Shown here one piece after another: positions 5,108 to 28,419 of a stretch of 64,000 nt of DNA. The position numbers and the translations under genes are program-made. Location: contig JADNYJ010000110.1 in assembly GCA_015501075.1 (NCBI GenBank), forward strand, positions 1 through 64,000, read 5' to 3'. The notes beneath the pieces were generated by a model. The model did not search any database and was not told where the DNA came from. It saw nothing but the letters and a program-made list of their open reading frames with translations. The stretch comes from Gymnopilus junonius (lineage: Eukaryota > Basidiomycota > Agaricomycetes > Agaricales > Galerinaceae). Numbering within the stretch: the first letter of the stretch is position 1; each line of letters starts with the position of its first letter.

Positions 5108-5112
5108 AAGAC
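5108..5112 (+). repeat. Target-site duplication AAGAC, left copy
   Basis: AAGAC lies directly before the left LTR; the identical copy at 12637-12641 lies directly after the right LTR. Five bases is the normal length for Ty3-type integrases. Confidence 0.9.
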
Positions 5113-5575
5113 TGTTATATATGCACCTCTGACCAACTCCGATCTCTGACTATACGAACTCCGACCTCATGATCCCTTGAAATACTACAAGTCCAGAACA
5201 CGTAGACACTTAGATTACACATAGCTAGGCAACTCCGAGTAACTTACACATCTGCCTGCTCACTAGTACACGTACAGTCTCTGCTTAGTTTCCTCCATAG
5301 TATAAAAACCTTAGAACTATTATTAGGTACCTTAGTTCATATATTGTTCATTAATCGATCCATGCTCTCTACTCTGCTCTCTCATTCTGATCTGACTCCG
5401 AAATTCAAGACAACGTCCAGACAATGGAGTGCAACACACACATTGAAGCTGAAGTCTCAACCCTATGTCTACATATGTTATGCTAAGACCAACTCTGATA
5501 CCAACATACTCTGATGTAGCTCCAACGTGGATCTCCTCTGCTTGCTCTGCCCTTCCTTCCATCAAGAACTTAACA
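5113..5575 (+). repeat. Left LTR (463 bp)
   Basis: It starts TGTTATATATGC and ends AACTTAACA. AGTATAAAAACC near 5299 is a TATA box. It differs from the right LTR almost only where one copy has CG, TG or CA and the other a different member of that set, which means methylated CpG decay after insertion. Confidence 0.95.
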
Positions 5576-5612
5576 GTATATATGAACTCATACTGCTTCT
5601 GGATTTCCAACT

Positions 5613-7435
5613 ATGCCCACCACAACATCCTGTACTACTGCCAACTCCTGTGCAGCCAGACAAAATGAATCTTGCACCATCATGATTCAGAATGTCAGAG
5701 ACTACCCTGACCATCCGAACACACAACCTCTGTCCAGCCTCAGCACTCTGACTCCCCTACCTTCGGGACCTTCATCAATGAGACAAACCAGTCCCAACCC
5801 ATTGCCACCTCCTGCTCCTGGTTCCCCTGGTGGTGAACCTGATCCCAATGATGATGGTGACAATTTTGACCCCCACCACTCTGATCACTCTGATCATTCC
5901 GATCACAACTCTGACCATGACCCCACTCTGAATCTCGCTGAAGCCATGATGCTCATGACCAAAGAGCTCAGGCATCGTGATAGCCCTATGGTTACCAAGA
6001 CCAAAGCCTGTGAGCCCGACACCTTCAATGGCTCTGACACCCAGAAACTTAATGGTTTTATTTTACAGTATAACCTCTACTTCCGAAACAACTGCACCTA
6101 CACTGCCAATGAAGACAAGGTCACATTCACCCTTTCCTACCTTCATGGCCTTGCAATGGAATTTTTTGAGCCTGCAATACTGGACTCAACAACTATTGAA
6201 CCATGGATGGACAACTGGCAAGCCTTTATAGGCATGCTGAAGTCCGAATTTGGTCCATTCGATCTGACCTCCAATGCCGCTGTAGCACTTGAAAACTTGA
6301 AGATGCCTGAAAACCAAAGGATCATCAAGTACAATGTTGAATTCAAGTGTTTGTCTATTCGATCATGCTGGGACAGCATCGCTCTCTGACACCGCTACTA
6401 CTTCAGTCTGGCAGAATGCATCAAGGACATTATGGCTAGCCGTGGCAAGCCACAAACTCTCGAGGACCTTCGAGAGCTCACTAGTGATAGGCAGGGGTAA
6501 CCCTGGGGTTGTTAGAGGGCTACCCTGACCCTTACCCTTGAAACCCCTTACCCTTGCATAAGGGTAAGGGGTTTCAATGATAAGGGTCAGGGGTTTTTGA
6601 AGGGTACAAATAATGGAAATCTTTGATAAAACCTGTAAAAATATCATCTCAAACCTCTTTTAATTTGAATAAAATACTGCATCTGCCATTCATAACCAAG
6701 CTTTCAAGTACATTTGGCTATTTTTGTATGCTCTTGAGATATTTTATCTGATAAAATAGAATTATATTACTATATATAGTATTTTATTGAAGCAGAGAAT
6801 CATGGTACAAAATGTTTTTTTGTTTCTAAACACTTTTTATTGAAAATTTGGCTGAAACTTCAGTAAAATCACTTCAAAAAATTTGGCATTCTATACCCTT
6901 GAAACCCTTGTCAAGGGTAAGGGTTTCTCAAGGGTAGCCAAATGCCTACCCTTACCCCTACGCTTCTTACCCTTACCCTCCACCCTTGGGGGTTTGAAAA
7001 CCCCTGACCATCACTAGAGCTCACCCAGGATATCGACACTCGTTACTGGGAATGTGTCTGTGAGAAGCCCTGACAGGACAAGAACGTGCAAAAGACCTCT
7101 GACAAAATGTCCGATCATACCTCTGACAAGACCTCTGACAAACGTTCCAACAACAACCATGTCAATAATAACAACAAGTCCTCCTCCAACCACAAGAACA
7201 ACTTGGGCAATTCATCCACTCTGAAAACCTCTGACTCTATCTCTGACAAGCTTGGCAAGGATGGCAAACTGACTGCCGAAGAATGCAAATGCTGCTTTGA
7301 CAACAATCTCTGCCTCTTCTGTGGCTCACTTGGACACCAAGCTAGTGAGTGTCCGAAGTCCACTTCCTCCACCTCCAAGGCAAAAGCATGCACCACCAAA
7401 GTTTCGAATCCCAGCACCAAGGATTCAAAAAAATA
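5613..7435 (+). pseudogene. gag of the complete chromovirus, split by a MITE
   Basis: The first part, 5613-6389, has a Pro/Ser/Asp-rich N-terminus followed by a Ty3 capsid-like region (PDTFNGSDTQKLNGFILQ, VTFTLSYLHG, WQAFIGMLKSEFG). A TGA at 6387-6389 replaces Arg, and the same frame continues as HRYYFSLAECIKDIM to 6481. There the MITE 6482-7016 is inserted. Beyond it the same reading continues (DIDTRYWECV) into an Asn/Ser/Lys-rich tail with one CX2CX4HX4C zinc knuckle (CLFCGSLGHQASEC) near 7312-7353, ending at 7433-7435. Gag packages the RNA. The MITE and its 8-bp duplication account exactly for the break. Confidence 0.88.
6482..7016. mobile_element. Nested MITE, hAT-like (535 bp, 8-bp TSD)
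   Basis: It starts TAGTGATAGGCAGGGG and ends in the near-perfect reverse complement CCCCTGACCATCACTA (14 of 16 match). It is flanked by the exact 8-bp duplication GAGCTCAC at 6474-6481 and 7017-7024. There is no transposase ORF. The interior is full of ACCCTT/AAGGGT strings, including a perfect 17-bp-arm hairpin at 6539-6576. The 8-bp duplication and TAGNG end point to the hAT superfamily, mobilised in trans. Confidence 0.92.
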
Positions 7436-7559
7436 GTCAGCAGTTTTCATCCCTTCGCACACACTGGGGCTTGCATTGACACTGGCTGTGTGCATATGAA
7501 GGAAGTAAGACTAAATGTGTCTGCTCTTTCTGACCCTGACTCTTTCCAACTTTCTCTAA

Positions 7560-10500
7560 TATCTCCAATCCGCTCCAACTTGAAGCCCTAACATTAATTG
7601 ACTCTGGTTCTAGTCATTGTTTTGTTGATACCCACTTCATGCATTCTAATAATTTACTCCCTTCTCTGATCGATCCGGTTAAGCTCAAACTGATTGATGG
7701 CTCCTATGGCAACATGATTACTGAAACCCTCTCCATTCTGATTACATTCCCTCCAGTGAAACTATTACCATTGATTTTTTGTAACCTCACTGGACTCCTC
7801 CTGTGTTCTGGTTCTAGGATATAACTGGCTCTTCTGCTACAATCCATTGATTGACTGGAAATTGGGCTGCATTGACTTCCGTTCTGAACTACTTGACAAC
7901 CCGGCTCCATGTCATCCCATAGGCCAGCTCTGCTGCCTACACCTCCATTATTGGAACCTCCGACCCCTCTGCTTCCTCTGCCAACTCCTATGGTTACACC
8001 TCTGACACCTCCAACCTCTGTAGCATCTTCTGATGCACCTCGCATCTCGCTAATCAATGCAGCTGCTTTCGCAAGAGCATGCAATTACCTGGTGCTCAAA
8101 GTTTCACAGTTCACCTCTCTGATCCTGCCATCTCTGCTCATGCCACTTCTGTCTCTGATGAAGCACCTGATCTGTCTAGTATTCCTCCTGAATACCATGA
8201 CTTTGCAGATGTCTTCAGTAAATCTAAAGCTGACACGCTCCACCCCATCAACCTTATGACCTCAAGATCAATCTCGAACCTGGCACTTCCCCTGCCTGTT
8301 GGAAATATGTACTCCCTTTCACAATCTGAACTTCAATCCCTCCAAGAATTTATTGAGAGCACCTCCGAATCAGTTTCATTCAACCTTCAACCTCTCTGCA
8401 TGGCCTCCAATCCTTTTCATTCCAAAAAGGATGGATCACTATGACTTTGCATCGACTTTAGAGGATTAAACAAGATCACGAAGAAAGACCGATACTGCTT
8501 CTGCTCATCTCTGACCTCCTGTCCACTGCTGGTAAAGCATGCATCTATATGGCCATCGACCTCTGACATGCCTATCACCTAGTCCGCATAGTGGAGGGTG
8601 ACGAATGGAAAACAGCATTCGAACATGCTATGGATGTTTGAATGGAATGTTGTGCCATTTGGACTGTCCAATGCACCTGCCATTTTTCAATGCTTCATGA
8701 ATGACATATTAAGGATTTATTAGATGTGTCTGTCATCATTTACCTGAGACATTCTGATCTACTCCGATGATCCTACCCAGCATAAGGAACATGTTCAAAG
8801 TCCTCCGACATCTCCGACAACACAGTCTGTATGCCCGCTCTGACAAATGCAATTTCTCTACAAACACGGTTAATTACCTTGGATTTATTCTTTCACCAGA
8901 AGGCCTCAAGATGGATGAAAGCAAAATCAAGACTATCCAAGATTGGCCTGAACCCAAGAAGATTAAGGATGTTCAATCCTTCTTAGGTTCAAATTTCTAC
9001 TGACGATTTATCTCTGACTACTCTGACATCATTGTTCTGCTCACCCGACTCACTAGGAAAGGAACCCCTTGGCAATTCAATGATGCTGCTCGAAAAGCCT
9101 TCAACAAGCTCAAGAAAGCATTTATGACTGCTCCAATACTTACTCACTGGGTTCCTGACCATCCAATTATTGTGGAAACTGATGCTTCTGACTACGTGCT
9201 TGAAGCAATACTCTCCATCTGCACCTCCGATGATGAGATCCACCCTGTTGCATTTCACTCATGTACTTTCACAGGTCCTGAAATTAACTATGACACCCAT
9301 GATAAAGAACTACTGGCAATTTTCGACACATTCAAAGCATGGTGACACTATCTGGAAGGCTCCACTGCTCCAATCGACATTGTCACTGACCACAAGAATT
9401 TAACGTATTTCACAACTACAAAAGTTCTTACATGCTGACAAGCCCGCTGGTCTGAATATCTCTGCCAATTCAACCTCATCATCTGCTTCTGCCCTGGACA
9501 TCTCGGTATGAAACCTGACTCTTTAACTAGATGATGGGATGTCTACCCCAAAGGGGGAAATAGCGACTATGCAAGCATTAACCCTAGCAACTTCCGACCA
9601 ATTTTCACCCAAGAACAACTCTCTGCATCCCTCCATGCCACTCAACTCTTCAAACCCACCCTCCATGCAGTATCCCTCATGGACTCTGACCTACTCTGAC
9701 ATGACATCCTCACTGCACTACCCTCTGACCTGGTTTACCTTGCTCACACAAAGGAACTAAAACCACACTGGTCCCTTGACCCAGATGGTTACCTCTGTCA
9801 TGAATCATGCATCTACATTCCTGATGCATCTGACCTCCGACTCTGCATCCTCTGACACAAGCATGATCATATCCTCACTGGACACCCTGGACAAAATAAG
9901 ATGACTAGTCTTATCCTCCATGAGTACACCTGGCCTGGACTCTGTGACTTCATTAAGAAGTATTGCAAATCATGTATGACATGTATGCATTTCAAACCTC
10001 AATGACACAAACCCTATGGATTGCTCAAACAGCTCCCAATCCCTGAATGTCCCTGGAATTCAATATCAATGGACTTTATCGAAATCCTTCCAATGTCCGA
10101 CAGACACAATGCGATCCTAGTCATTGTTGACTAACTCACTAAGCAAGCTATATTCATTCCAACCACCTCTGCTTGCACCTCTGAAGACCTCGCCATGCTT
10201 TTTGTCATTCATGTGTTCTCCAAGCACAGCATTCCCGAACATGTCACCTCTGACTGCAGACCTGAATTCATCTCCTGCTTCTTCTGATCCTTAGGAAAAG
10301 CACTTGACATGAAACTCCATTTCACTTCTGGATACCATCCTGAAGGCAATGGCCAGACTGAATGCACTAATCAAACACTAGAGCAATACCTCCAAATTTA
10401 TTGCAACTATCAGCAAGATAATTGGTCAAGTCTATTACCTCTTGCAGAGTTTGCTTACAACAATGCTCCTAGTGCTACTACTGGCATTTCACCTTTCTTC

Positions 10501-11151
10501 ACTAATAAAGGTTACCACCCTAACATGGCTATCCACCCTGAACGCAACCTCACCTCTGCTCGCACTCATGATTTTGTTGTTGATCTAGATGAATTACACA
10601 AAGAACTGAAGAATGCTATCGCTGAATCACAAAAGCATTATCAAGTCTCCACTGACCTCTGACGAACTCTGCCACCAGACTTCCAAGTCAGACAACAAGC
10701 ATTCATCAAAGTGAAATTCTTCTGCACCACACATCCCTCCAAGAAACTCTCTGAAAAATATTACAGTCCTTTTGATATTATCACCAAAGCTGGCACACAC
10801 TCCTTTACCTTATGACTGCCTGACTCCATACATGGTGTTCACCCCATTTACCACATTTCTATGCTGGAACCATTTACTCTGAATGATATTCTGAATTGGA
10901 CTCAACCTCCGCCTCCACCTGTTGAAGTCAAAGGCAAAATTGAATATGAAATCGCTGAAGTCCTTGACTCCAAGCTTGATCAATGATGCAAGTGCAAATT
11001 ATTGTACTTAATCTGCTGGTTAGGTTATGAAGGCACTGATGAAGAACAATCCTGGCTCCCAGCTACTGAACTCGAACACGCGCCCAACCTCATCTCCGAC
11101 TTTCACTCCGCTTACCCCAACAAACCTGGACCCCTTTCATCTCTCACTTAG
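7560..11151 (+). pseudogene. pol of the complete chromovirus (protease, RT, RNase H, integrase, chromodomain)
   Basis: Recognisable pieces in order: aspartic protease (LIDSGSSHCFVDTHF near 7592), reverse transcriptase (LCIDFRGLNKITKKDRY near 8446; LGFILSPEGLKMDESKI near 8880), RNase H ([34 protein letters not shown]), integrase zinc-binding part (ILTGHPGQNKM, CKSCMTC), integrase core ([35 protein letters not shown]) and chromodomain (LICWLGYEGTDEEQSW near 11010). About ten in-frame stops sit at Arg positions; nearly all are TGA, one near 10132 is TAA. At the catalytic YLDD two bases are missing, which shifts the frame. It ends at 11149-11151. Confidence 0.92.
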
Positions 11152-11237: not shown

Positions 11238-12042
11238 CTAATGATGAGCACACTTTGCTGGCACCTCATCCTCGTACTCCTTGCCCTCCTCATACTCCTT
11301 GCCCTCCTCGTACTCCTTGTACTCCTCCTCCAACTCCAACTCCAACTCCAACGACTCCTTCCTCTTCCTCTTCAACCCCACCTCTTCCTTACTCTCACTC
11401 TCACTCTCACTCTCATCTGTTTCCTCCTGTCCACCCATCACCACTCTGACTACCTTGTCCTCCAACTCCTCTGACTCCTCCAACTCTGACTCCTCCACCT
11501 CAACCTTCTTCCCCACATCCAAGGCCACCATGACCCTCTTGTACCTCTCGTTCAAATACTCTGCCTCCCTAAAAACAAATCACAAGTCAAAAAAAAAAAA
11601 ATCATAACAAAGAAACATTAAATGGGACTTACCTTGGCCATAGGCACTCTGCCCCTGCCTGCACACACTGGATGCAGATGACTCTGACCACCACCTCATA
11701 CACTCTGGCCAACTCCCACATTGCGACCACCTGCTGCTGTGTCACAGCTGCCTTCTGCACCTTCTTCTTCCCCTTTGTGGTTTTCCTCTGCTCTGCCTCT
11801 GCTGCTTTCTCTGCCTCCACTGCCTTCTGTGCTTCTTCCGCCGCCGCCTCCACCTCTGCCACCTTCCGTGCTTCCTCTGCTACCCATTCTGCCTCTGCAT
11901 GCTCCTCTGCCTCCCGTCGCCTCTGCTCCATCCATTCCTGCTTCTGACGAAGCTCTTCCCTCTGGAGCGTGAGTTGCTGCTCCTGTGCTTTGAGGTCTTT
12001 GAGGTTTTCGAAAACCTCTGAGTCAGAACCATGGTGTGACAT
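11238..12042 (-). CDS. Intact spliced antisense gene inside the retrotransposon (246 aa)
   Basis: On the strand opposite to pol, ATG at 12042 opens an uninterrupted frame. Exon 1 (12042-11633) and exon 2 (11568-11238, stop TAG) join across a canonical 64-bp intron (GTAAGT to TTTTTAG). The protein begins MSHHGSDSEVFENLKD, runs as a long Glu/Ala/Gln/Arg-rich coiled coil, has a short Cys motif CX2CX6C (CIQCVQAGAEC) followed by LWPR, then a Lys/Glu-rich acidic tail. No stop is present although pol beside it has many. Coiled-coil ORFs with such a Cys motif are, from memory, common in Agaricomycete transposon regions; their function is unknown. It could be an element-encoded accessory factor or a captured host gene. 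Confidence 0.7.
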
Positions 12043-12158: not shown

Positions 12159-12170
12159 AAGGGGGAAATA
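12159..12170 (+). other. Polypurine tract
   Basis: AAGGGGGAAATA lies directly before the right LTR, the position where plus-strand DNA synthesis is primed. Confidence 0.85.
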
Positions 12171-12171
12171 C

Positions 12172-12636
12172 TGTTATATACGTGCCTCCAACCAACTCCG
12201 ATCTCCAACTATATGAACTCCAACCTCATGATCCCCTCGAAATACTACAAGTCCCAGAACATGTAGACACTTAGATTACACGTAGCTAGGCAACTCCGAG
12301 TAACTTACACATCTGCCTGCTCACTAGTACATGTACAGTCTCCACTTAGTTTCCTCTGTAGTATAAAAACCTTAGAACTATTATTAGGTACCTTAGTTCA
12401 TATATTGTTCATTAATTGATCCATGCTCTCTACTCCACTCTCTCATTCTGATCCAACTCCAAAATTTGAGACAACATCCAGACAATGGAGTGCAACACAC
12501 ACATTGAAGCTGAAGTCTCAACCCTATGTCTACATACATTATGCTAAGACCAACTCTGACACCAATGTACTCCAATGTAGCTCCAATGTGGATCTCCTCT
12601 GCTTGCTCCGCCCTTCCTTCCATCGAGAACTTAACA
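12172..12636 (+). repeat. Right LTR (465 bp)
   Basis: It matches the left LTR end to end, with TATA box AGTATAAAAACC near 12360. Compared with the left copy, former CG sites have independently become CA or TG. Confidence 0.95.
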
Positions 12637-12641
12637 AAGAC
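12637..12641 (+). repeat. Target-site duplication AAGAC, right copy
   Basis: Identical to 5108-5112. Confidence 0.9.
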
Positions 12642-17967: not shown

Positions 17968-18919
17968 TCAGTCGAGCATCATATGCGGATCAAGGCTTGA
18001 AAATCCTTCATCGTCGATGACTTTACAGATGCGAGGATAGTCATCCCTTTCAAACCTGCATCTGGGGTAGAAAGAACCCAAATGGGGGCAATGCGCCATT
18101 GGTATCACGTGTGGCATTCCTGCCAGTGCTGCAAACTTCAAAGCGCGCGGCGACATGACGTCTGCATACTTAATCGTGTCACTGTGTTAGGTTCCTGCAG
18201 GTCGAACTGAAACCTGACCAGCACAATGCATTTAAACAGGTATTTTAGCACCGTCAAGCGATGCAAGTATAGCAGGCAAGGACAGTGGCCCTAGGATGCG
18301 AACACTGAGGCCATCAGCAAAGTGTCAAAAAAGTTTCCGGGTTTTTACCCGTTTTGGGTGGTTTTTTGGTTTCCCGGAAACCTGCCGAGATATTTTCATT
18401 CATTTCGCTAACAAATTGCTACATTTGGATTAGTGCCGAAAATTTTGCCCGCCAGGTTTTTGGAAAATCGGACCTGGGTTTCCAGGTTTCCAGATTTCGA
18501 CATTTTTGGACCATTTTGGGCTGGTTTCCATGGTTTTTTCGGTTAGAAAACCCCAAAAAACTTTTTTGCCGGTTTCCTGATGCTGTCATCGGAACCAACG
18601 AGTTCGCTCAGGCGCTCATATCTGAGGCCCATCTATCGCTCAGGGATTCCGTAAAGTTCTTTTTTGGCTTCTCGACTGCCAACGGATTATGAAGAACACG
18701 AGGCCTCCACCATCCATATTGCAGGTCATGTAAGTGTTTTTTTAGACTTTCTGGCTTTTCCTGTTTTGAGCCATCCAATGACACTCCCCAATAATAGATT
18801 GGATTCGGAGGCATATCAAATATGACATCTCGTGGTTCGTTATCATCATCCAGCAATCTACAGCCTTTCAGTCTAGCGAAACTGAAAATCGTAACTATGC
18901 GGCCTCGAGGTGCTTCCAA
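17968..18919 (-). pseudogene. Fragments of an unidentified gene, interrupted by a repeat
   Basis: Minus-strand reading gives protein-like pieces in a consistent order: PPNPIYYWG, LHNPLAVEKPKKNFTESLSD and RWASDMS (about 18850-18605), then after a repeat block DGLSVRILGPLSLPAIL (about 18310-18240), then IKYADVMSPRALKFAALAG and FERDDYPRICKVIDDEGFSS to a stop at 17968. Frames change between pieces, and a possible intron (GTTTAAATG to ACACAG) lies near 18225-18178. I do not recognise the family. The 5' end runs antisense into the first codons of the HET gene at 18822, so the true 5' end of one of the two is misplaced. Confidence 0.4.
18310..18585. repeat. GTTTCC-rich repeat with imperfect terminal inversion
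   Basis: The left end CATCAGCAAAGTGTCAAAAA and the right end (inverted) CATCAGGAAACCGGCAAAAA share about 80% identity. The interior consists of GGTTTCC and TTTTTGG strings. No target duplication could be found. It splits the gene fragments around it, so it is probably a transposon remnant. Confidence 0.45.
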
Positions 18920-21294
18920 GTTCCGAGATTATGGAGGGTTACGCGAGGACGATGGCTTTCGTGATCACGCTGGTCTGCGTGGGGATGGAGATCGCGAGGA
19001 TAGTTGGAAGCCCAAGCACAAAAGTAACAGATCGGGTGGCAGCTTCCACAGTCTTAACAGCAATCTTTGCAGTACGTGCAGAGGGCTCGACATCCGACCG
19101 GATCGATTCATCGTAGGACACTGGGACGATGACGCGGATGGCAGCGACCCAAATCAACCTCAAATATCAATAGGATTGGTGGAGGACATCAAAAAGAAGT
19201 CAAGCAGCTGTCCATTTTGCAGGCTAGTTCTCAAGTCCCTTGGACCGGGGTTGCCGTTGGTCGAAGATGGAGAACCAATCTTGGTTTCTCTGACCTGGAA
19301 TACCGATGGGCCTGTCCCTGATCCCAATAACGCGCCAGAAAAACACGAATCTCAGATTCGATATATCAGACCCCACATACAGAAGAAGAATGGAGGAATT
19401 GTCAATGCCAAAGGCCTAAATTCATTGCCAGAAATTACACTAGTCGCCGACGACGCTCCTTCATCGTACTCATCCAAGTCCTTCCTCGTCCGACTCATTC
19501 CCGAACAAGTAAATTTGGTATGATACGCGACTGGATTACTTTGTGCGACAGATGGCATGGACGCGACTGTGACAAGTCGGAGATGCTTGATCACGAAGTC
19601 AAAGACCCGGCCAGTGAAATTCCCCATTTTCGTCTCATAGATGTTATCGAAAATCGCCTAGTACATGCACCACCGGATTGTAAATACGTAGCGTTGAGCT
19701 ACGTCTGGGGTCGAATTGATCCCCAGACCATCCTTAGGGCACTCAAGGATAACGTCGCAGAGCTGGAGAGCACCGGAGCACTTAAACTTCCTAAATACTA
19801 CAACACCATGCCGAAGACAATCCGCGATGCTATTCAGGTCGTCCGAGAATTAGGGCTCCGGTATTTATGGGTTGACAGTCTTTGTATCATCCAGGATGAC
19901 ATAGGCCCTGGTGGGAGCAAGATGAGCGCTATATCAAAAATGGATCTTGTTTATGGCGCAGCGTACTTGACTATAACTGCAGCTACTGGAGTCGACTCAA
20001 ACGCTGGCCTTCCTGGTTTGTTACCGGGCACTCGGCAAGTTGCTCAGCCTGTCGAAGAAGTTTTGCCGGGGGTCAGGCTCGCTCATAAGCTGAAATATCA
20101 AGACTTCATCAGTAGCTCTGCTTACTACACTAGGGGATGGACGTACGTGAAACTTATTTGGTGTATAAAATGAAGTCAGGCTAACGAAAATTACACAGAT
20201 ACCAAGAACAGAAATTTACAAAGCGCAGTCTCATTTTCATTGGTGGCCAGGCTATCTACAAATGTAGAACTGTCGGCCAATGGCGCGAGGATGTCGTCTT
20301 CGAGGATGAACCAAGGAAGGAAATTACCCAACGCCCACCAGACCCTGATGATATAAGCCCGTATGTTGGGTTCATCCAGTCTTACACCGCGCTGTCGCTC
20401 TCCTACCAGACTGACATATACAATGCATTTGCCGGAATCGCTCGTTATCTCAAGGTGCAACTAAGCCTGAACTTGACGCACGGGATACCAGACGCTTTTT
20501 TCGATTGGTTTCTTCTCTGGGTACCAGTGGTACCTCAGACGCGGCGAGAGAACACTCCGAGCTGGTCCTGGTCGGGTTGGATTGGCGAGTCTTCATGGAA
20601 ATGGCTTGATCAAAGTCGGAGTATGAAGAATATCCGTAAGGCTCACGAAGAACGTACTTGGATTATCTGGTACCAGCGGAATGCAAATGATTCTGTTGTA
20701 TACACACGAATTTGGACGCCCAAACAGGATCCAAAGGTTTTGGCAACCAGCAACCTTTACGGTGGACAAATGAAACCCCGATTTCCTTTTGACTGCAGTC
20801 AAACCGTTCCAACGCCCCGCAGATTGGTTGGAGCACCTGAATACTTTAAGGACCGGCCGCACGATGAAAACCCTTCTTTTCTTGAACGTATATCCAGCGG
20901 TTCTGGTTTCCTGCAGTTTTGGACCGTCTCTGCTGTGTTCAGACTTGATCAACCTTCCAGCGCGGCAGACCCTCGAAGCACTGTAAACCCTAACACTCGC
21001 TTGGGCATTTTTGGCGGAGATGGACGCGAGCTCGGTGTCATCTTCGTGAATCCTGAATGGAGCGCCTCGTATGTGCCAAGCAATCAAGAGTTCATTCTTT
21101 TGTGTGAGGGTCGAGACGAGAGCACGAGTGGTGGCCGCATGGATGATGAAAAGGGGTGCAAATTTTATAAAGTAATGTTAATTGAACGGAAGGGAGACTG
21201 GGCTGAACGAGTCGCTGTAGGATCAATTGAAAAGCAAGGCTTAGACCAAGCACTGGAAAATGGTGCGGTATGGAAGGAAATTACTCTAGGGTAG
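18822..21294 (+). CDS. HET-domain protein 1 (one frameshift in this assembly)
   Basis: HET-domain proteins trigger cell death in fungal non-self recognition. The N-terminal part has a Cys module, LCSTCRGLDIRPDRFIV followed by CPFCRLVLKSLG, a candidate zinc site. The HET domain follows: YVALSYVWGRIDPQTILRAL, TIRDAIQVVRELGLRYLWVD and SLCIIQDD, then VYGAAYLTI. A 56-bp intron (20143-20198, GTACGT to ACACAG) joins GWT to YQEQ. The C-terminal half has DAFFDWFLLW and PSWSWSGWIGES. Between about 19511 and 19520 the frame changes; the paralogs have one more T here, so a one-base loss explains it. ATG at 18897 is an alternative start that aligns better with the paralogs. First of four tandem copies. 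Confidence 0.85.
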
Positions 21295-21837
21295 GATGAA
21301 CGATGTTACATAACTCTCCGCCAAATTGTTATGCATTGAAGGATGATTAATGTTCGTAGTTGTTCAAGGAAATGAGAAAGAGAAATATTACTAGGCGGTC
21401 TCAGTGGTCCGATCTATTTTTAGTTCCCTCAAATGCGTGAGCCTTGCAACTTCGACTACAACCACCATTTGACAACCACCATTGTGAGTCTTTGTTTCTG
21501 CACTATCTTAATTTGAATCTTGCTCCTCCAGCAAACTTGTGGCACCAAAAGCTATCTATTTTTATCTGCCTATTATGAAGATCAGCACTTACGCACATGA
21601 CCTCAAACTTCAGCAATCAGTCGATGAAAGAACTATACTAGAACACTTTGCTTTAGCTGCCCTCTCAATTCATTTGCAGGTCTAACAATCTTGAAAAATT
21701 GTTGTCCTGAAATCGAAAGTTCGCACATGTCCATAGACATCTCTACTTTTTCGAGGGAGGTAGGGACTTCCGTCTTCCTAGTTATGCCATATGCCTTCTC
21801 CAACAATTAACAAGGATAATTTCTATCGGTATTGAGC
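21295..21837. other. Intergenic, contains a degenerate copy of the HET upstream module
   Basis: TCTATTTTTAGT and ACTACAACCACCA near 21412-21470, then TTTCTGCACT near 21497, match the segments found upstream of the third and fourth HET genes. No ORF. Confidence 0.5.
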
Positions 21838-22275
21838 CTGACAAGGATACTTTATATTCGGAGGACTTGGACGACGTAGGAGGAAGCGATACAGAGATAA
21901 TCCTCCCCACAAACGATGAAGTTGAAGGAAACGATGACGATGATTCGGAAAACGGATCGAGGACGAGGACGGCGATGCAGAACAACTCTGAGGACGGCAA
22001 TTTTGAGCAAGGTTCCGAGAACAATAGACCTCTTGGAGTAGCAACCCTCCAGCTCCTCCCAATACCGGCATCACTCAAGAGTGGCCAAAGTCTCTGTTTG
22101 ATCTGCAAGAAGCTCGATCTCTCTCCAAGGCGATTTGTCGTATTACCTCGGGATCCTGGCGTCTATTCAAGGATTCGGAGCAGATCGACTTCGGAATGGT
22201 ATAGAGTTGGCTCAATATGTGAGGTTCATCATACGAAGCTTGACGCCATTCTGCCCCAACTTGCTTCACATTGAA
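21838..22275 (+). pseudogene. HET-family pseudogene 2 (internal deletion)
   Basis: An acidic N-terminal region (NDEVEGNDDDDSEN) and the Cys module start (LCLICKKLDLSPRRFVVLP) are clearly paralogous to the next gene. After LPRDPG the sequence jumps directly to a stretch matching QIDFGMV of the paralogs, so about 85 codons including CPFCRLV are gone. It then meets TAG and TGA stops. No HET domain remains. No good ATG is visible. A remnant of a fourth array member, not explained by single-base errors. Confidence 0.85.
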
Positions 22276-22373
22276 ACAAGATATTTGCTCCATATTTATG
22301 TGATAGCGATGTCGCCCTCTGCTGTGCCCAAAAGCAGAGTGGGTAAATTCAATATCCCAAGGACGGATCCGAC

Positions 22374-22939
22374 CTATTTTAGTCTGACTTCTACTACAAC
22401 CACATACAGCTCTGGCAGCTGCATCCAACTTTGTAGATGTTTTATTCCTGCACTTTCCGAAGATTGACAGCTTCTCCGGCGAACTTGTTGCACCGATCTT
22501 CCATGTAAATTCGCCAGATATGGAGACCTCGATCAGCATTCATTGCTTGAAAACTTGAGGGGCCTCACTGGCATAGTATGTCTGATATTTTCTTCAACAA
22601 AGCAGACTCACACATACTGACGATATACTTCATTAGGTCCCGATCTAATGCTTAGACTTGAGATACCTTTCGCTTGGCCGAAATCTATTAATGTGATATT
22701 CCAAACATAACTTTCTCCCAATTTCTATCATTGACAGGCGGAATGAATGATATGCAAATAATATGTGTTTATAGAACGCTGTGATTTGACTGTTCTCCAA
22801 ATTCGTCCACAGGATCTGCTTATCTGCAGGCTCCACTTATAATATCTTGTTGTCTTTTAGATCCAAGATCCAAGGTGCCCATAAACATCCCGACTTTCGC
22901 AAATACACCACACACAGAACGTTCAGCCTTCCCAACGAT
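22374..22939 (+). promoter_or_regulatory. Duplicated upstream module of HET gene 3
   Basis: 22374-22480 (CCTATTTTAGT, CTACAACCACATA, TTATTCCTGCACT, CATCTCCGGCGAAC-like block) and 22700-22815 (AGGCGGAATGAATGA, GTGTTTATAGAAC) recur in the same order at 25640-25745 and 25960-26060 before HET gene 4. The repeat of about 3.26 kb spans module plus gene. Shared promoter content is likely, specific sites are not known. Confidence 0.6.
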
Positions 22940-25393
22940 ATGTCCCCTCTGCCTTTCGACATACACGATTTCTTCGACACTGAGTCTGATAGCGATGTTT
23001 CCGACGCAGAGAACGAGGTTGACGAAGAAGGAAGCGACTCTGAAGGAAGCCTCCTAGAAGATGAAACCAAAGAAAGTGGTGACGACGACTCCGAAAACGC
23101 ATCGGGCAGCGGCGAAGACGATGAGGACACCGATTCAGACCGAAGCGGTTCGGAAGACGACCAACCAGCAAAGGATTTAACCATACCTCCACTTCTCCCT
23201 GTACCAACTTCGCTCCAGGAGCGAAAACCAACGCTCTGCTCCATATGCAAGAAACTCGATCTCACACCGAGGCGATTCGTCGTCTTACCTGGGGACCCGG
23301 AGACTGGAGATGAAGTCGATGATCCTAACATCGCTTTGGGTCTCCTAGAAGATATCAGGAAGAAGGCGTCAAATTGCCCATTCTGTCGACTCGTTCTCGC
23401 TGCACTTGGACCCAATGTACCTTCAGTTGGAGAGGATGGCGCCAAAGTAACAGTCACCATGACTTGGAACACAGACGGCGCATACAAAGGGCGCCCAATT
23501 ATTCGCATCCTCAGGCCCTACGCTAATACAACGAAAGGCGGGTATATTGAAATACCCCATTTGTTTCCGGAAATCACAATGCTGGCTAACGACGCCCCTG
23601 CAAATGCCAAGAAGACTCACTTGGCCCGTATTATTAAGGATCAGATTGACTTTGGAATGGTGCGGAATTGGCTTGACATATGCAAGGTCCAACATGGAAG
23701 TGCATGCGACGAAACCAAGATGATGGATCATCAAATCAATGATCCTGCCACTGACATTCCTCACTTTCGTCTTATAGATGTCGTCGATAACTGTATCGTT
23801 CCCGCGCCCCATGGTGTCAAATACGTCACACTGAGTTATGTCTGGGGTAGGATTGATCCCACAACAATCCTCAGATCGCTCTTGAATAACTACAAGCAAT
23901 TGGAGAAGCCCGGTGCGCTCTTGATTCCTCGGAACCGTGATATAATTCCTATCACGATTCGCGATGCCATGCAGGTCGTCAGAGAGCTAAAGCTTCGCTA
24001 TCTGTGGGCTGACAGTTTATGTATCATTCAGGATGACACCGGGCCTGGAGGAAGCAAGATGAGCTCCATCTCAAAGATGGATATTGTCTATGGTGCGGCA
24101 TACCTAACCATTTTCGCTGAGAGTGGATCGGATGCCAATGCAGGTTTGCCGGGAGTGCGACCCAACACACGCGGAACATTCAGCCTATCGAGGAAGTTCT
24201 GCCAAATTGAGGCTGGCTTTCAAGCCAATGTCACAAAACTATATGGCTGAAGCGGCATACTTCACCAGAGCATGGACGTGAGTGTTGCGCGTTATAGGCA
24301 TCACATTAGCTGACATGAATTTTTAGCTATCAAGAACAAGAGTTCACGAAACGCAGCCTAGAATTCATCGGAGGCCAGTTGTCTACAATTGTGTGAAGGG
24401 GAACGAATGGCGCGAGGACGTCTTTTCGAGGATGGGAAAATTAAGGAAAGAGAGGCCACAGCTTACGATGATGACGACATTGGAGAATTTGAAGGATTGA
24501 TCCAGACATACTCTGGGCGCTCTCTCACTTATGATTCGGATATTTATCATGCCTTTGCCGGGTTGAATAATTATTTCAAGAAGCGTCTGAGGGGGGACTT
24601 GGTTCATGGTATGCCAAACACTTATTTCGATTGGTTCCTTCTCTGGAATCCGATAAGCGTTCAAAAGCGTCGTGACAAGGTTCCCAGCTGGTCTTGGTCA
24701 GGTTGGATAGGTGAATCATGGCCGCATATGTGGGATTGGTACAATCGCAGCATGCTGAGAGTCCGTGGTGCTCTCCGTCAACGCACCTGGATTATCTGGT
24801 ATCAACGCAAAGCCCATAACTCCGAGGAGGTTATTCGAGTTTGGACACCCAAGAAAAGTTCACAGCCTACATCGCAACCAAGGAACTTTTACGGCGGCCA
24901 TACCAAGGACCGCTTCCCAATCGATTGCAGTCGGACGACTCCCACACCACGCAAACTAACCGGAGCTCCAGAATACTTTGAAGACTCGCACAACCCTACA
25001 CCAGGTTCAGGGTTCTTGCAGTGCTGGACGGTTTCTCTCGTGTTTAAACTTGGCAGACCAACAAGTGCCGATGAAAATGACGAACCCACAAACGGAATTA
25101 CTCGTTTCGGGATTTATGGTCGATCTAATCGTGAACTAGGGATTGTCTACCTGCATCCAGAATGGGCCAAAGCAAATCTCGGGAAAGATCACGAATTCAT
25201 CATCCTTTGCGAAGGACGAGATAAGAGGGCGGAATATGACGAAATAGACGAAGAAGAGGGATGGAGGTACAAAGTGATGCTTATTGTCTGGAAAGGCGAT
25301 TGGGCTGAGCGGATTTCTGTTGGCTCTATTGGCAAAGACGATTTGAATCAGTCGGCTTATGGGCCACAGTGGAAGGAAATAATTTTGGGGTAA
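22940..25393 (+). CDS. HET-domain protein 3 (four one-base frameshifts)
   Basis: ATG at 22940 aligns with that of HET 4. An acidic, Ser-rich N-terminus (DTESDSDVSDAENEVDEEG) precedes the Cys module (LCSICKKLDLTPRRFVVLP, then CPFCRLVLAALG) and the HET domain (YVTLSYVWGRIDPTTILRSL, LRYLWADSLCIIQDDTG, YGAAYLTIFAESGSDANAG). The intron is 24278-24326. The C-terminal part shows DWFLLWNPISVQKRRDK and PSWSWSGWIGESW, ending KEIILG at 25393. Compared with HET 4, single bases are missing near 24178, 24206, 24377 and 24424. Real decay and assembly error cannot be told apart from sequence alone. The canonical VDSLC reads ADSLC. Confidence 0.85.
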
Positions 25394-26195
25394 ATTAGTT
25401 CGAAATAGTACGAAGAATAAGCGTCAATGTAAATCCTTGGATGCACGTTGAGTCTCGCGAATAGAACACGATATGGTCGACGTAAATTCTTGAATGTATC
25501 TTTTCTTTTTCAGCAGCTTCACGGCTTCGAGTAGTTGTGGATTGAAAATTAAATATTGGGGAGCTTGCTCAATGCTCATCTCGAAAAAGCTGTATCCACG
25601 TGACCTGCGTTTGGCCAGCCGCCACCCCGTGGGAGGCTATTTTTAGTGTTTCCGCGTATTGGACCACAACCACATCCATATAAGGGCATTTTATTTCTGC
25701 ACTCTCTGACAGCATCTCCGGCGAACATATTACACCGGAATTCTATCTAACTCTATCAGCCAAGGGAATTGTCGTTTGTGTGGAGCCATGAAGGTTGTCG
25801 CTGGCAGTACTTATTTCTGATGTTTGTTCACTGAGTGTGAAGCAGAAGTCATGTACACTGAAGAGTTCGTCCTCCAGATCCTAATCTCAACGCTTGGACT
25901 TCGAAACATTTTTCTGCCTCGCCCTGGCCTATTGATATGATATTCCAAACATAACTTCCTCCCAATGTCTATCGGCCATTGGAGAGTCGGGACTTTGACA
26001 GGCAGAATGAATGATGGGTGTGTTTATAGAACAGTGGAGTCTGACCGTCTTCCTAATTCGCTGACAGCGAGCGCTTCAAGTTGTCTATTGATTCTCAGCT
26101 ATAAGATTCTGTCATCCTTAAGATAAAGATGCAAGGTGTCCCTGAACATTCCCCGACGTTGGCAGACACACCAGAGCTTCAACCTTCCCATCGAT
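25394..26195 (+). promoter_or_regulatory. Upstream region of HET gene 4 with duplicated module
   Basis: Non-coding. Contains the second copy of the module seen before HET 3: GGCTATTTTTAGTG, ACCACAACCACATCC and TTTCTGCACTC near 25640-25710, then GACAGGCAGAATGAATGA and GTGTTTATAGAACAG near 25997-26035. The leader up to the ATG is also conserved. Confidence 0.6.
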
Positions 26196-28419
26196 ATGAC
26201 CCCTCCACCCACAGTACCTTCACTTCTCCCTGTGCCAGCTTCGCTCAAGAATCGCAACCCAACCCTATGCTCTGTATGCAAGAAGCTCAATCTCACTCCA
26301 AGGCGATTCGTCATCTTACCTGGGGATCCAGAGACCAGAAATGAAGCTAGTGTCGACTTGGGACTTCTGGAAGCCATCAGGAAGAAAGCACCTAATTGTC
26401 CATTCTGTCGACTCGTTCTTGCCGCGCTTGGACCCAAAACGCCATTAGTTGGAAAGGATGGCGCTAAAGTGACAGTCACCATAGCTTGGGGCACAGACGG
26501 CTCATTCCAGCGGCGTCCCAGTATTCATACCCTCATGCCCCATGCTGAGACCACGAAAGGTGGATACATTGAAGAAACCAATATGTTTCCGGAAATCAGA
26601 ATGCTCGCCAACGACGCTCCTTCCAATGCCAAGAAGACCCAGTTGGTACGCATTATCAAGAACCGAATTGACTTTAGCATGGTACGGAACTGGCTCAATA
26701 TATGCAAGATCCAGCATGGAAGTGCGTGCGATGAAACCAAGATGATGGACCACCAAATCAAGGATCCGGCCAAAGACATTTCTCACTTCCGTCTCATAGA
26801 CGTCGTCGATAACTGTGTCATCCCCGCACCTCACAATGCCAAATACGTCGCACTGAGTTATGTCTGGGGTAAGATTGACCCCACGACAATCCTCAGATCG
26901 CTCCTGAATAACTACAAGCAACTGGAGAAGGCTGGAGCGCTCTTAGTCCCAAAAAACCACGATATAATTCCTATCACCATTCGCGATGCTATACAGGTGG
27001 TCAGAGAGTTGAACCTTCGCTACCTGTGGGTCGACAGTCTGTGTATCATCCAGGACGATATTGGACCTGGAGGAAGCAAGATGAGCTCCATCTCGAAGAT
27101 GGATCTTGTCTATGGTGCAGCATACCTAACCATCTGGGCTGCAACCGGGTCTGATGCCAATGCAGGACTGCCGGGAGTGCGACCCAACACACGTGGAATA
27201 ACTCAGCCTATCGAGCAAGTCCTGCCGACCTTGAGGCTGGCATTTATGCCAAGGTCCCAGGACTACGTACCTGAAGCGGTATATTACACAAGGGCATGGA
27301 CGTAAGTGCTATTCGTTATAGATTTGTTAAATTAGCTTACATATATCTATAGCCTCCAAGAACAGGAATTCACGAAACGAGAACTAGTATTCATCGGAGG
27401 CCAGGTTGTGTACAATTGTGTCAAAGGGACCGAATGGCGGGAAGATGTCTTATTCGAAGACGGGAACATCGAACAAGTGAAAGCTGCATCTAACGACAAC
27501 GACGACATTGGCCAATTCGAAGGATTGATCCAGTCATATTCTGGACTTTCTCTGACCAAAGAGAAGGATATTTATGATGCATTCGCTGGACTGAATAACT
27601 ACTTCAAGAACCGTTTGAACGTGAACTTGGTTCATGGTATACCAGACGCTTATTTTGATTGGTTCCTTCTCTGGCACCCGCTAGGCGTTCAAAAGCGCCG
27701 TGACAAGGCTCCAAGCTGGTCGTGGTCGGGTTGGATTGGTCAGTCGTGGCCGAATATGTGGGATTGGTACAACCCTCGCATTACAAAAATACGCTGTGCC
27801 CTCCGCCAACGCACTTGGATTATTTGGTACCAGCGCAAGGCTGATAATTCCGAGGAAGTTATTCAAGTTTGGACGCCGAAGCAGAGTTCTCAGCCTACAT
27901 CGAAACCACTAAACTTTTATGGTGGTGTTACCAAGAACCGCTTCCCGATCGACTGCAGTCGGACGGTTCCTACGCGACGCAAACTAGTCAGAGCTGTACA
28001 ATACTATCCTGACTCCCACAACCCTGCGCCAGGTTCAGGCCTTTTACAGTTCTAGACAGTTTCTCTGGTGTTTAAACTTGGCAGGCCGACCAGCGCTGAA
28101 CAAAGAGGTCCCCCAAATGCAAATACTCGCTTTGGGATCTATGGACGATCTAACCGTGAACTGGGCATCGTCTATCTGCAACCAGAATGGGCCAAAGCGA
28201 ATCTCGGGAAGGATCATGAATTCATCATCCTCTGCGAAGGACGGGATAAGAGGGCCGAGTCTGACGACAAAGTAGAGAAGAAGAGGGATGGAGGTACAAA
28301 GTGATGCTTATTGTCTGGAAAGGCGATTGGGCTGAGCGGATTTCTGTTGGTTCTATTGGAAAGGACGATTTGTATCAGTCAGCAGATGGTCCTCAGTGGA
28401 AAGAGATATCCTCGGGTAG
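26196..28419 (+). CDS. HET-domain protein 4 (premature TAG in the C-terminal part)
   Basis: ATG at 26196. Lacks the acidic extension of HET 3. Cys module LCSVCKKLNLTPRRFVILP and CPFCRLVLAALG, then an intact HET domain (YVALSYVWGKIDPTTILRSL, LRYLWVDSLCIIQDDIG, VYGAAYLTIWAATGSDANAG). Intron 27302-27352. The second exon reads DAYFDWFLLWHPLGVQKRRD and PSWSWSGWIGQSW, and meets TAG at 28053-28055 where the paralogs have TGG (Trp). The last about 120 codons remain recognisable to about 28419 with one or two one-base shifts (near 28275 and 28413). Of the array, this copy has the only unbroken first exon, so a protein with full HET domain and shortened tail is possible. Confidence 0.87.

Follow-up and report, generated by a model that had tools for sequence, protein, structure and literature searches.

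The stretch of DNA analysed here (the window) comprises 64,000 nucleotides of the 58 Mb genome of the fungus Gymnopilus junonius and carries a complete, roughly 7.5-kb insertion of a Ty3/gypsy chromovirus. The insertion begins with a 5′ LTR (5113–5575), which has TG...CA ends and a TATAAAA sequence at about 5301–5307, and ends with a 3′ LTR (12172–12636), both on the plus strand and flanked by an AAGAC target-site duplication at 5108–5112 and 12637–12641. Between the LTRs, the plus strand encodes a gag piece with a DUF4939 domain (5586–6389; PF16297, E 1.1e-7), the end of gag with a CCHC zinc knuckle (7074–7436; PF00098, E 6.5e-5) and a pol piece with RNase H (9004–9345; PF17919, E 1.1e-25). 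A further pol piece (10288–10662), without a Pfam match of its own, was assigned to the integrase region by its match by eye to a piece of another copy of the element, L002, which has a C-terminal chromodomain (PF00385, E 8.8e-9). It is the paired LTRs with their AAGAC repeats, the gag, CCHC and RNase H matches and the chromodomain of L002 that identify the element as a Ty3/gypsy chromovirus. Directly before the 3′ LTR, at 12159–12171, lies the sequence AAGGGGGAAATAC, which by its position would be the polypurine tract. The pol gene of the window is in pieces and in more than one frame.

On the opposite strand, between pol and the 3′ LTR, there is a second gene. Its exon 1 (12042–11633, 410 bp) starts with an ATG at 12042 and contains a coil-like stretch and the first half of a zinc cluster; the intron (11632–11569) is 64 bp long and of the GT..AG type (GTAAGT...TTTTTAG); and exon 2 (11568–11238, 331 bp including the stop codon) has kept a KRKR motif and an acidic tail. 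The original prediction of a minus-strand, stop-free frame of 246 residues with a canonical 64-bp intron thus proved right in coordinates and translation, and its placement between pol and the 3′ LTR is borne out by the mapped LTRs and the AAGAC on both sides. The long coil, the CX2CX6C motif and the acidic tail that had been described are also present, the coil being a Glu/Ala/Arg/Lys-rich stretch judged by eye.

The two LTRs of the insertion are identical at 432 of 471 positions across the aligned stretch, six flanking bases counted in. Within the LTR pair proper, 36 of 463 aligned sites differ, with two gap columns, and these differences comprise 13 CpG transitions, 22 sites in TG/CA pairs—apparently one CpG mutated on both sides—one other transition and no transversion, i.e. 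35 of the 36 are of the CpG type. CpG has an observed/expected ratio of 0.32 in the element, whereas a HET-gene region elsewhere in the window reaches 0.94. This marks the insertion as young yet strongly affected by CpG mutation of the methylation type, and raw LTR identity would date it far too old. Elsewhere in the window, a second, different Ty3 element at 40–2127 has RNase H, integrase and a Tf2-type SH3 domain in long open pol pieces; no comparable antisense frame was seen in the sequence beyond these pieces. Three genes that are similar by eye lie in a row at 18798–28055, and a HET domain was confirmed in the gene at 22790–24250, which is in keeping with a filamentous fungus.

The undeleted gene and its place in the element family

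At least 74 stretches matching the antisense gene were found in the genome to which the window belongs, and their comparison does not uphold the description of the window gene as intact. Relative to the undeleted copy L012, 318 bp are absent from exon 2 directly after the intron acceptor, following the first bases of the exon, and most copies have about 310–320 bp more than the window at this point. The deletion takes out a second CX2CX6C motif as well as the best-conserved stretch of the protein, leaving only the first half of a six-cysteine pattern, and since 318 is divisible by three, the frame stays open. To judge from these alignments, the window gene is an internally deleted copy of an accessory gene belonging to a family of Ty3 chromoviruses.

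In two undeleted copies, L011 and L012, the whole frame is open and encodes 336 amino acids, with a coiled coil-like stretch, the pattern CX2CX6CX12CX2CX6C, KRKR and the acidic tail. The motifs originally read from the window are thus real, but they describe a truncated version of a protein that in full has a six-cysteine cluster. This cluster is divided by the intron: exon 1 ends in the first CX2CX6C, and exon 2 opens with the second, twelve residues further on, which includes a conserved lysine (Lys147). Conservation is highest in residues 191–232 (YLREI.DLLEDMSW..., mean 0.92, compared with 0.82–0.89 elsewhere). Of 42 long copies, 34 retain all six cysteines, as do L081 and L082 of the divergent subfamily B, where the spacing is also unchanged; frameshifts occur in L079 past the fourth cysteine and in L083 inside exon 1. 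The long charged stretch of exon 1, read by eye, would form a coiled coil.

Searches for relatives of this protein were negative. In Pfam, the undeleted protein matched nothing, bZIP and zinc cluster families included (PF00172 gave no match up to E 10), and the window exons gave only matches below the cut-offs. No relative of the undeleted protein was found in a large protein collection, in which one pass was confined to the 7992 candidates with the most shared words, probably from the coiled coil, and in which a control search with gag found six relatives, i.e. such elements are present there but thin, and spliced genes may be split. IMG/VR held no match to part of the protein or to a pol piece, and a sequence search of the PDB returned no solved structure. 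AlphaFold, given exon 2 alone, predicted three helix segments, two of them long, at low confidence (pLDDT 58).

Where the gene lies within the element was determined for 60 non-redundant loci taken from among the matches listed, namely the window and 39, 14 and 6 fetched loci (the batch of 14 being what remained of 30 after 16 places already counted had been dropped). A pol tail lies downstream of the gene and antisense to it at 49 of the 60, in 36 of these at a distance of 107–145 bp; it is on the same strand only in L073, and at 10 loci none was detected in the sequence stretch examined. An LTR is found upstream in the expected orientation at 55 loci; its distance to the beginning of the gene match is 127–131 bp at 47 of them and 110–111 bp in the four subfamily B copies. 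The upstream LTR is absent in three loci and reversed in two (L061 and L073). At least one element part is in the expected orientation at 59 of the 60 loci, the exception being L073 with both reversed. With its near-constant distances to pol tail and LTR, the antisense gene is a regular part of the element family, and the homologous frames that had been sought in other copies do exist in this genome, antisense and at a regular place.

The intron and the question of coding constraint

The GTAAGT donor, together with an acceptor region 60–69 bp further on, is kept in 38 of 40 loci (39 fetched loci and the window). Both exceptions, L043 and L047, have lost the donor through deletions, and in two of the 38, L045 and L046, the acceptor reads TTTTTAAG. 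The latter two are very similar element copies on two contigs, with more than 1 kb extra between the exons of the antisense gene. Allowing up to three mismatches, the acceptor-junction pattern occurs at 68 places genome-wide and the pattern of the spliced exon–exon junction at none; intron loss by splicing was looked for and not seen among the copies. Since the genomic RNA strand offers no splice signals, the intron is carried along by retrotransposition. The absence of a spliced-out copy and splice signals that exist only in antisense imply that the gene should be made from a spliced antisense transcript. The argument that this intron is incompatible with the genomic RNA strand, and hence points to antisense transcription, has therefore gained from the comparison of copies, which bear the intron at a constant place. 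If the intron were retained in the transcript, translation would run into an in-frame TAA one codon on.

Another argument for function, the open frame next to a dead pol, fares less well: the frame is open and pol is broken, but the contrast carries little weight. Across the 42 long copies, 51 of the 73 in-frame stop cells are TGA where other copies read CGA. For the portion retained by the window, the estimated chance of having no stop of this CGA-to-TGA type is 46%, and adding indels at the rate of the window's LTR–LTR comparison leaves a chance of about 9% for a fully open frame without selection. Because the damage is near-purely of the CpG type and the frame would stay open in about 9% of cases anyway, the openness of the window frame beside a broken pol is mildly unusual and no strong evidence of function; intactness as proof of function was rejected on these estimates. 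At codon 167 of L012 and its counterparts, CGA reads TGA in 19 of the 42 long copies and also in L081–L083 of subfamily B, which is a recurrent stop through CpG mutation.

Constraint was also assessed across the family. Subfamilies A and B share the cysteine spacing and the splice signals at about 60% protein identity, and the frame has been kept through this divergence. Exon indels found in at least four of the 42 copies are multiples of three in 7 of 12 cases; for the intron and the UTRs, the figure is 1 of 11 (p 0.027). At a cut of at least five copies, which was chosen afterwards, the figures are 5/5 and 0/8. Exon indels in two or three copies are multiples of three in 20 of 50 cases, and the difference between shared (at least four copies) and private exon indels, 7/12 versus 32/105, is not significant (p 0.10). 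The indels of eight hand-picked near-open copies (38/51 versus 30/124 private multiples of three) were rejected as a proof free of bias, because choosing open copies means choosing for frame.

Substitutions give a mixed picture. Between subfamilies A and B (the latter represented by L081 and L082), dN/dS is 0.31–0.46 for the antisense frame in eight pairs, with 0.63–1.38 for shifted frames. When CpG transitions are left out, the ratio for A against B is 0.54–0.80 for transitions and 0.64–1.08 for transversions in six pairs, and over the 11 pairs tested 0.44–0.80 and 0.08–2.03, respectively, with one value undefined. Non-CpG variants present in at least two copies are distributed over the three codon positions as 46/31/64, private ones as 92/74/74, so that third positions account for 64 of 141 shared but 74 of 240 private variants (p 0.0057), 31 of the 141 being of single origin and 110 recurrent on the tree. 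Transversions alone (13/13/19 shared versus 36/39/41 private) show no clear excess at third positions (19/45 versus 41/116). A tree test on single-origin changes found no synonymous excess, with 8:23 synonymous to nonsynonymous on internal branches versus 47:178 among private changes (p 0.34), and purifying selection on the basis of this test alone was rejected. The comparison of dN/dS among copies that the original prediction had proposed is favourable between the subfamilies as a whole and less so once CpG transitions are removed. Taken as sequence evidence, we read these patterns as a constraint that is real but moderate, diluted by decay after insertion.

A putative regulator of the LTR

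The LTRs of the family contain a motif array of their own. In the LTR of L018, CTCCGA is the most frequent hexamer and occurs nine times in one orientation, a count reached by none of 2000 dinucleotide shuffles; the top hexamer reaches a count of 7 in L010 (2/2000 shuffles) and 6 in L012 (3/2000). The nine CTCCGA of L018, at hexamer positions 15–420, flank the TATAAAA of this LTR on both sides. The same six ACTCYRA sites recur in 12 subfamily A LTRs out of 14 examined, with the two window LTRs counted apart, and the three subfamily B LTRs could be compared in partial sequence only. In the 5′ LTR of the window, the strict motif is about seven times and the degenerate motif about twice as dense as in the internal region of the element. 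TCGGAG, the reverse complement of CTCCGA, contains a CGG core. Read on the minus strand, the 3′ LTR contains TATATAACA at its inner edge, some 130 bp before the antisense start codon; this sequence is found in 50 of the 51 loci (of 60) with the surrounding context kept. It is a candidate antisense TATA box, LTR ends being constrained by integration too.

Our preferred reading, to which we give a probability of roughly 0.55, is that the window contains a truncated copy of a chromovirus antisense accessory gene and that the protein it encodes in undeleted form is a nuclear LTR regulator produced from a spliced antisense transcript. Such a transcript would probably be driven by a promoter located where the 3′ LTR borders the internal region and be spliced once, giving a product of 300–350 amino acids with an N-terminal coiled coil, the six-cysteine zinc cluster, basic stretches and the acidic tail. 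The most likely role of this protein would be that of a nuclear DNA-binding regulator acting on the CTCCGA/TCGGAG array of its own LTR (up to nine repeats) and balancing sense transcription, i.e. replication, against antisense transcription, in a manner similar to HBZ of HTLV-1. Control of the element, one of the two options raised in the original prediction, is plausible on this reading. Considerably more tentative is the idea of a complete HBZ-like switch, in which an intron-gated antisense gene supplies a zinc-cluster protein of reversed order that reads the TCGGAG array and determines how far the element replicates or stays silent. If this were true, translation of a transcript retaining the intron would stop after the first half of the cluster, and splicing would thus decide whether the full DNA-binding protein is made.

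Other readings share much of this evidence. The gene may be a genuine element gene whose protein acts after transcription, for example as a nuclear tether for the pre-integration complex or for RNA, or as a structural partner, and not through binding of the LTR. Its position and the coding evidence are equally compatible with such a role, coil, KRKR and acidic tail would suit an adaptor, and an element with a chromodomain may need targeting partners; a six-cysteine pattern with a conserved Lys147, however, looks like DNA binding, and the LTR motif array also argues against this possibility, which we consider rather unlikely. Clearly less probable still is that the antisense RNA itself acts as a non-coding brake on sense expression, the frame being incidental or a relict. 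That non-CpG dN/dS is just mildly below 1 and that the tree test is not significant would fit a non-coding RNA, but the widely shared exon indels tend to keep the frame when those in intron and UTRs do not, and cysteine spacing and splice signals are common to subfamilies as far apart as A and B.

Capture of a host gene by the element, which the original prediction had offered as an option, appears just as improbable as a non-coding brake. A gene inserted in antisense would retain its intron, and introns and zinc clusters are ordinary features of fungal host genes; yet the near-universal association with correctly oriented element parts at the 60 loci inspected speaks against capture, as does the lack of relatives in a protein collection that holds only six relatives of gag, so that this option found no support.

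Relation to known antisense genes

As a putative LTR regulator, the protein invites comparison with antisense genes of other LTR elements, previously known from a few retroviruses and plant Retand-type elements. Transcripts of HBZ are described as starting in the 3′ LTR of HTLV-1 and as alternatively spliced (PMC1459196), and HBZ is reported to lower sense transcription and perhaps to raise antisense transcription (PMC3185765); APH-2 of HTLV-2 is a further case named in the literature (PMC11963269). Like HBZ, the fungal gene lies in antisense at the 3′ end of its LTR element and has a splice-type structure and, as predicted from sequence, a transcription factor-like product. It differs in belonging to a fungal chromovirus, in having a zinc cluster in place of a bZIP match and an ATG outside the LTR, and in being known here from its sequence. 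Antisense ORFs between pol and the 3′ LTR are also described for the plant Ty3/gypsy elements Retand, Grande and RIRE2; that of Retand is said to occur in nearly all recent families, to have a TRP28 domain and to be thought to bind DNA and regulate (PMC11963269). Here, too, an antisense frame occupies the interval between pol and the 3′ LTR of a Ty3/gypsy element in most copies, but the Retand elements are not chromoviruses, and the conserved intron and the six-cysteine cluster set the fungal gene apart.

By its spacing, the cluster of the undeleted copies fits the pattern CX2CX6CX5-12CX2CX6-8C given for fungal Zn2Cys6 proteins (PMC5542705), which are described as typically recognizing CGG triplets in homodimeric form, with a coiled coil (PMC5559640). 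The likeness to Gal4-type proteins extends to the coil-like stretch, but in the fungal element protein the coil lies before the cluster and not after it, and the cluster is not recognized by PF00172. Compared with Gal4, the two halves of the cluster appear to be in reversed order, the DNA-reading basic half (CxxCR..K type) presumably coming after the other one. Additional ORFs have also been captured by LTR retrotransposons of bdelloid rotifers (PMC5408684), in the available description of which antisense or spliced genes do not occur.

In the openly licensed full-text literature, we found no report of an antisense accessory gene in fungal chromoviruses, and the word ‘antisense’ is absent from the fungal retrotransposon papers checked there. 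A conserved intron that can work solely in antisense gives direct evidence, at the sequence level, that a retrotransposon carries an antisense gene, and self-regulation by such genes thus becomes testable in culturable organisms. By the tests made, the protein belongs to none of the HBZ, Retand or Zn2Cys6 systems; by analogy, we take it to work like the antisense proteins of HBZ and Retand type.
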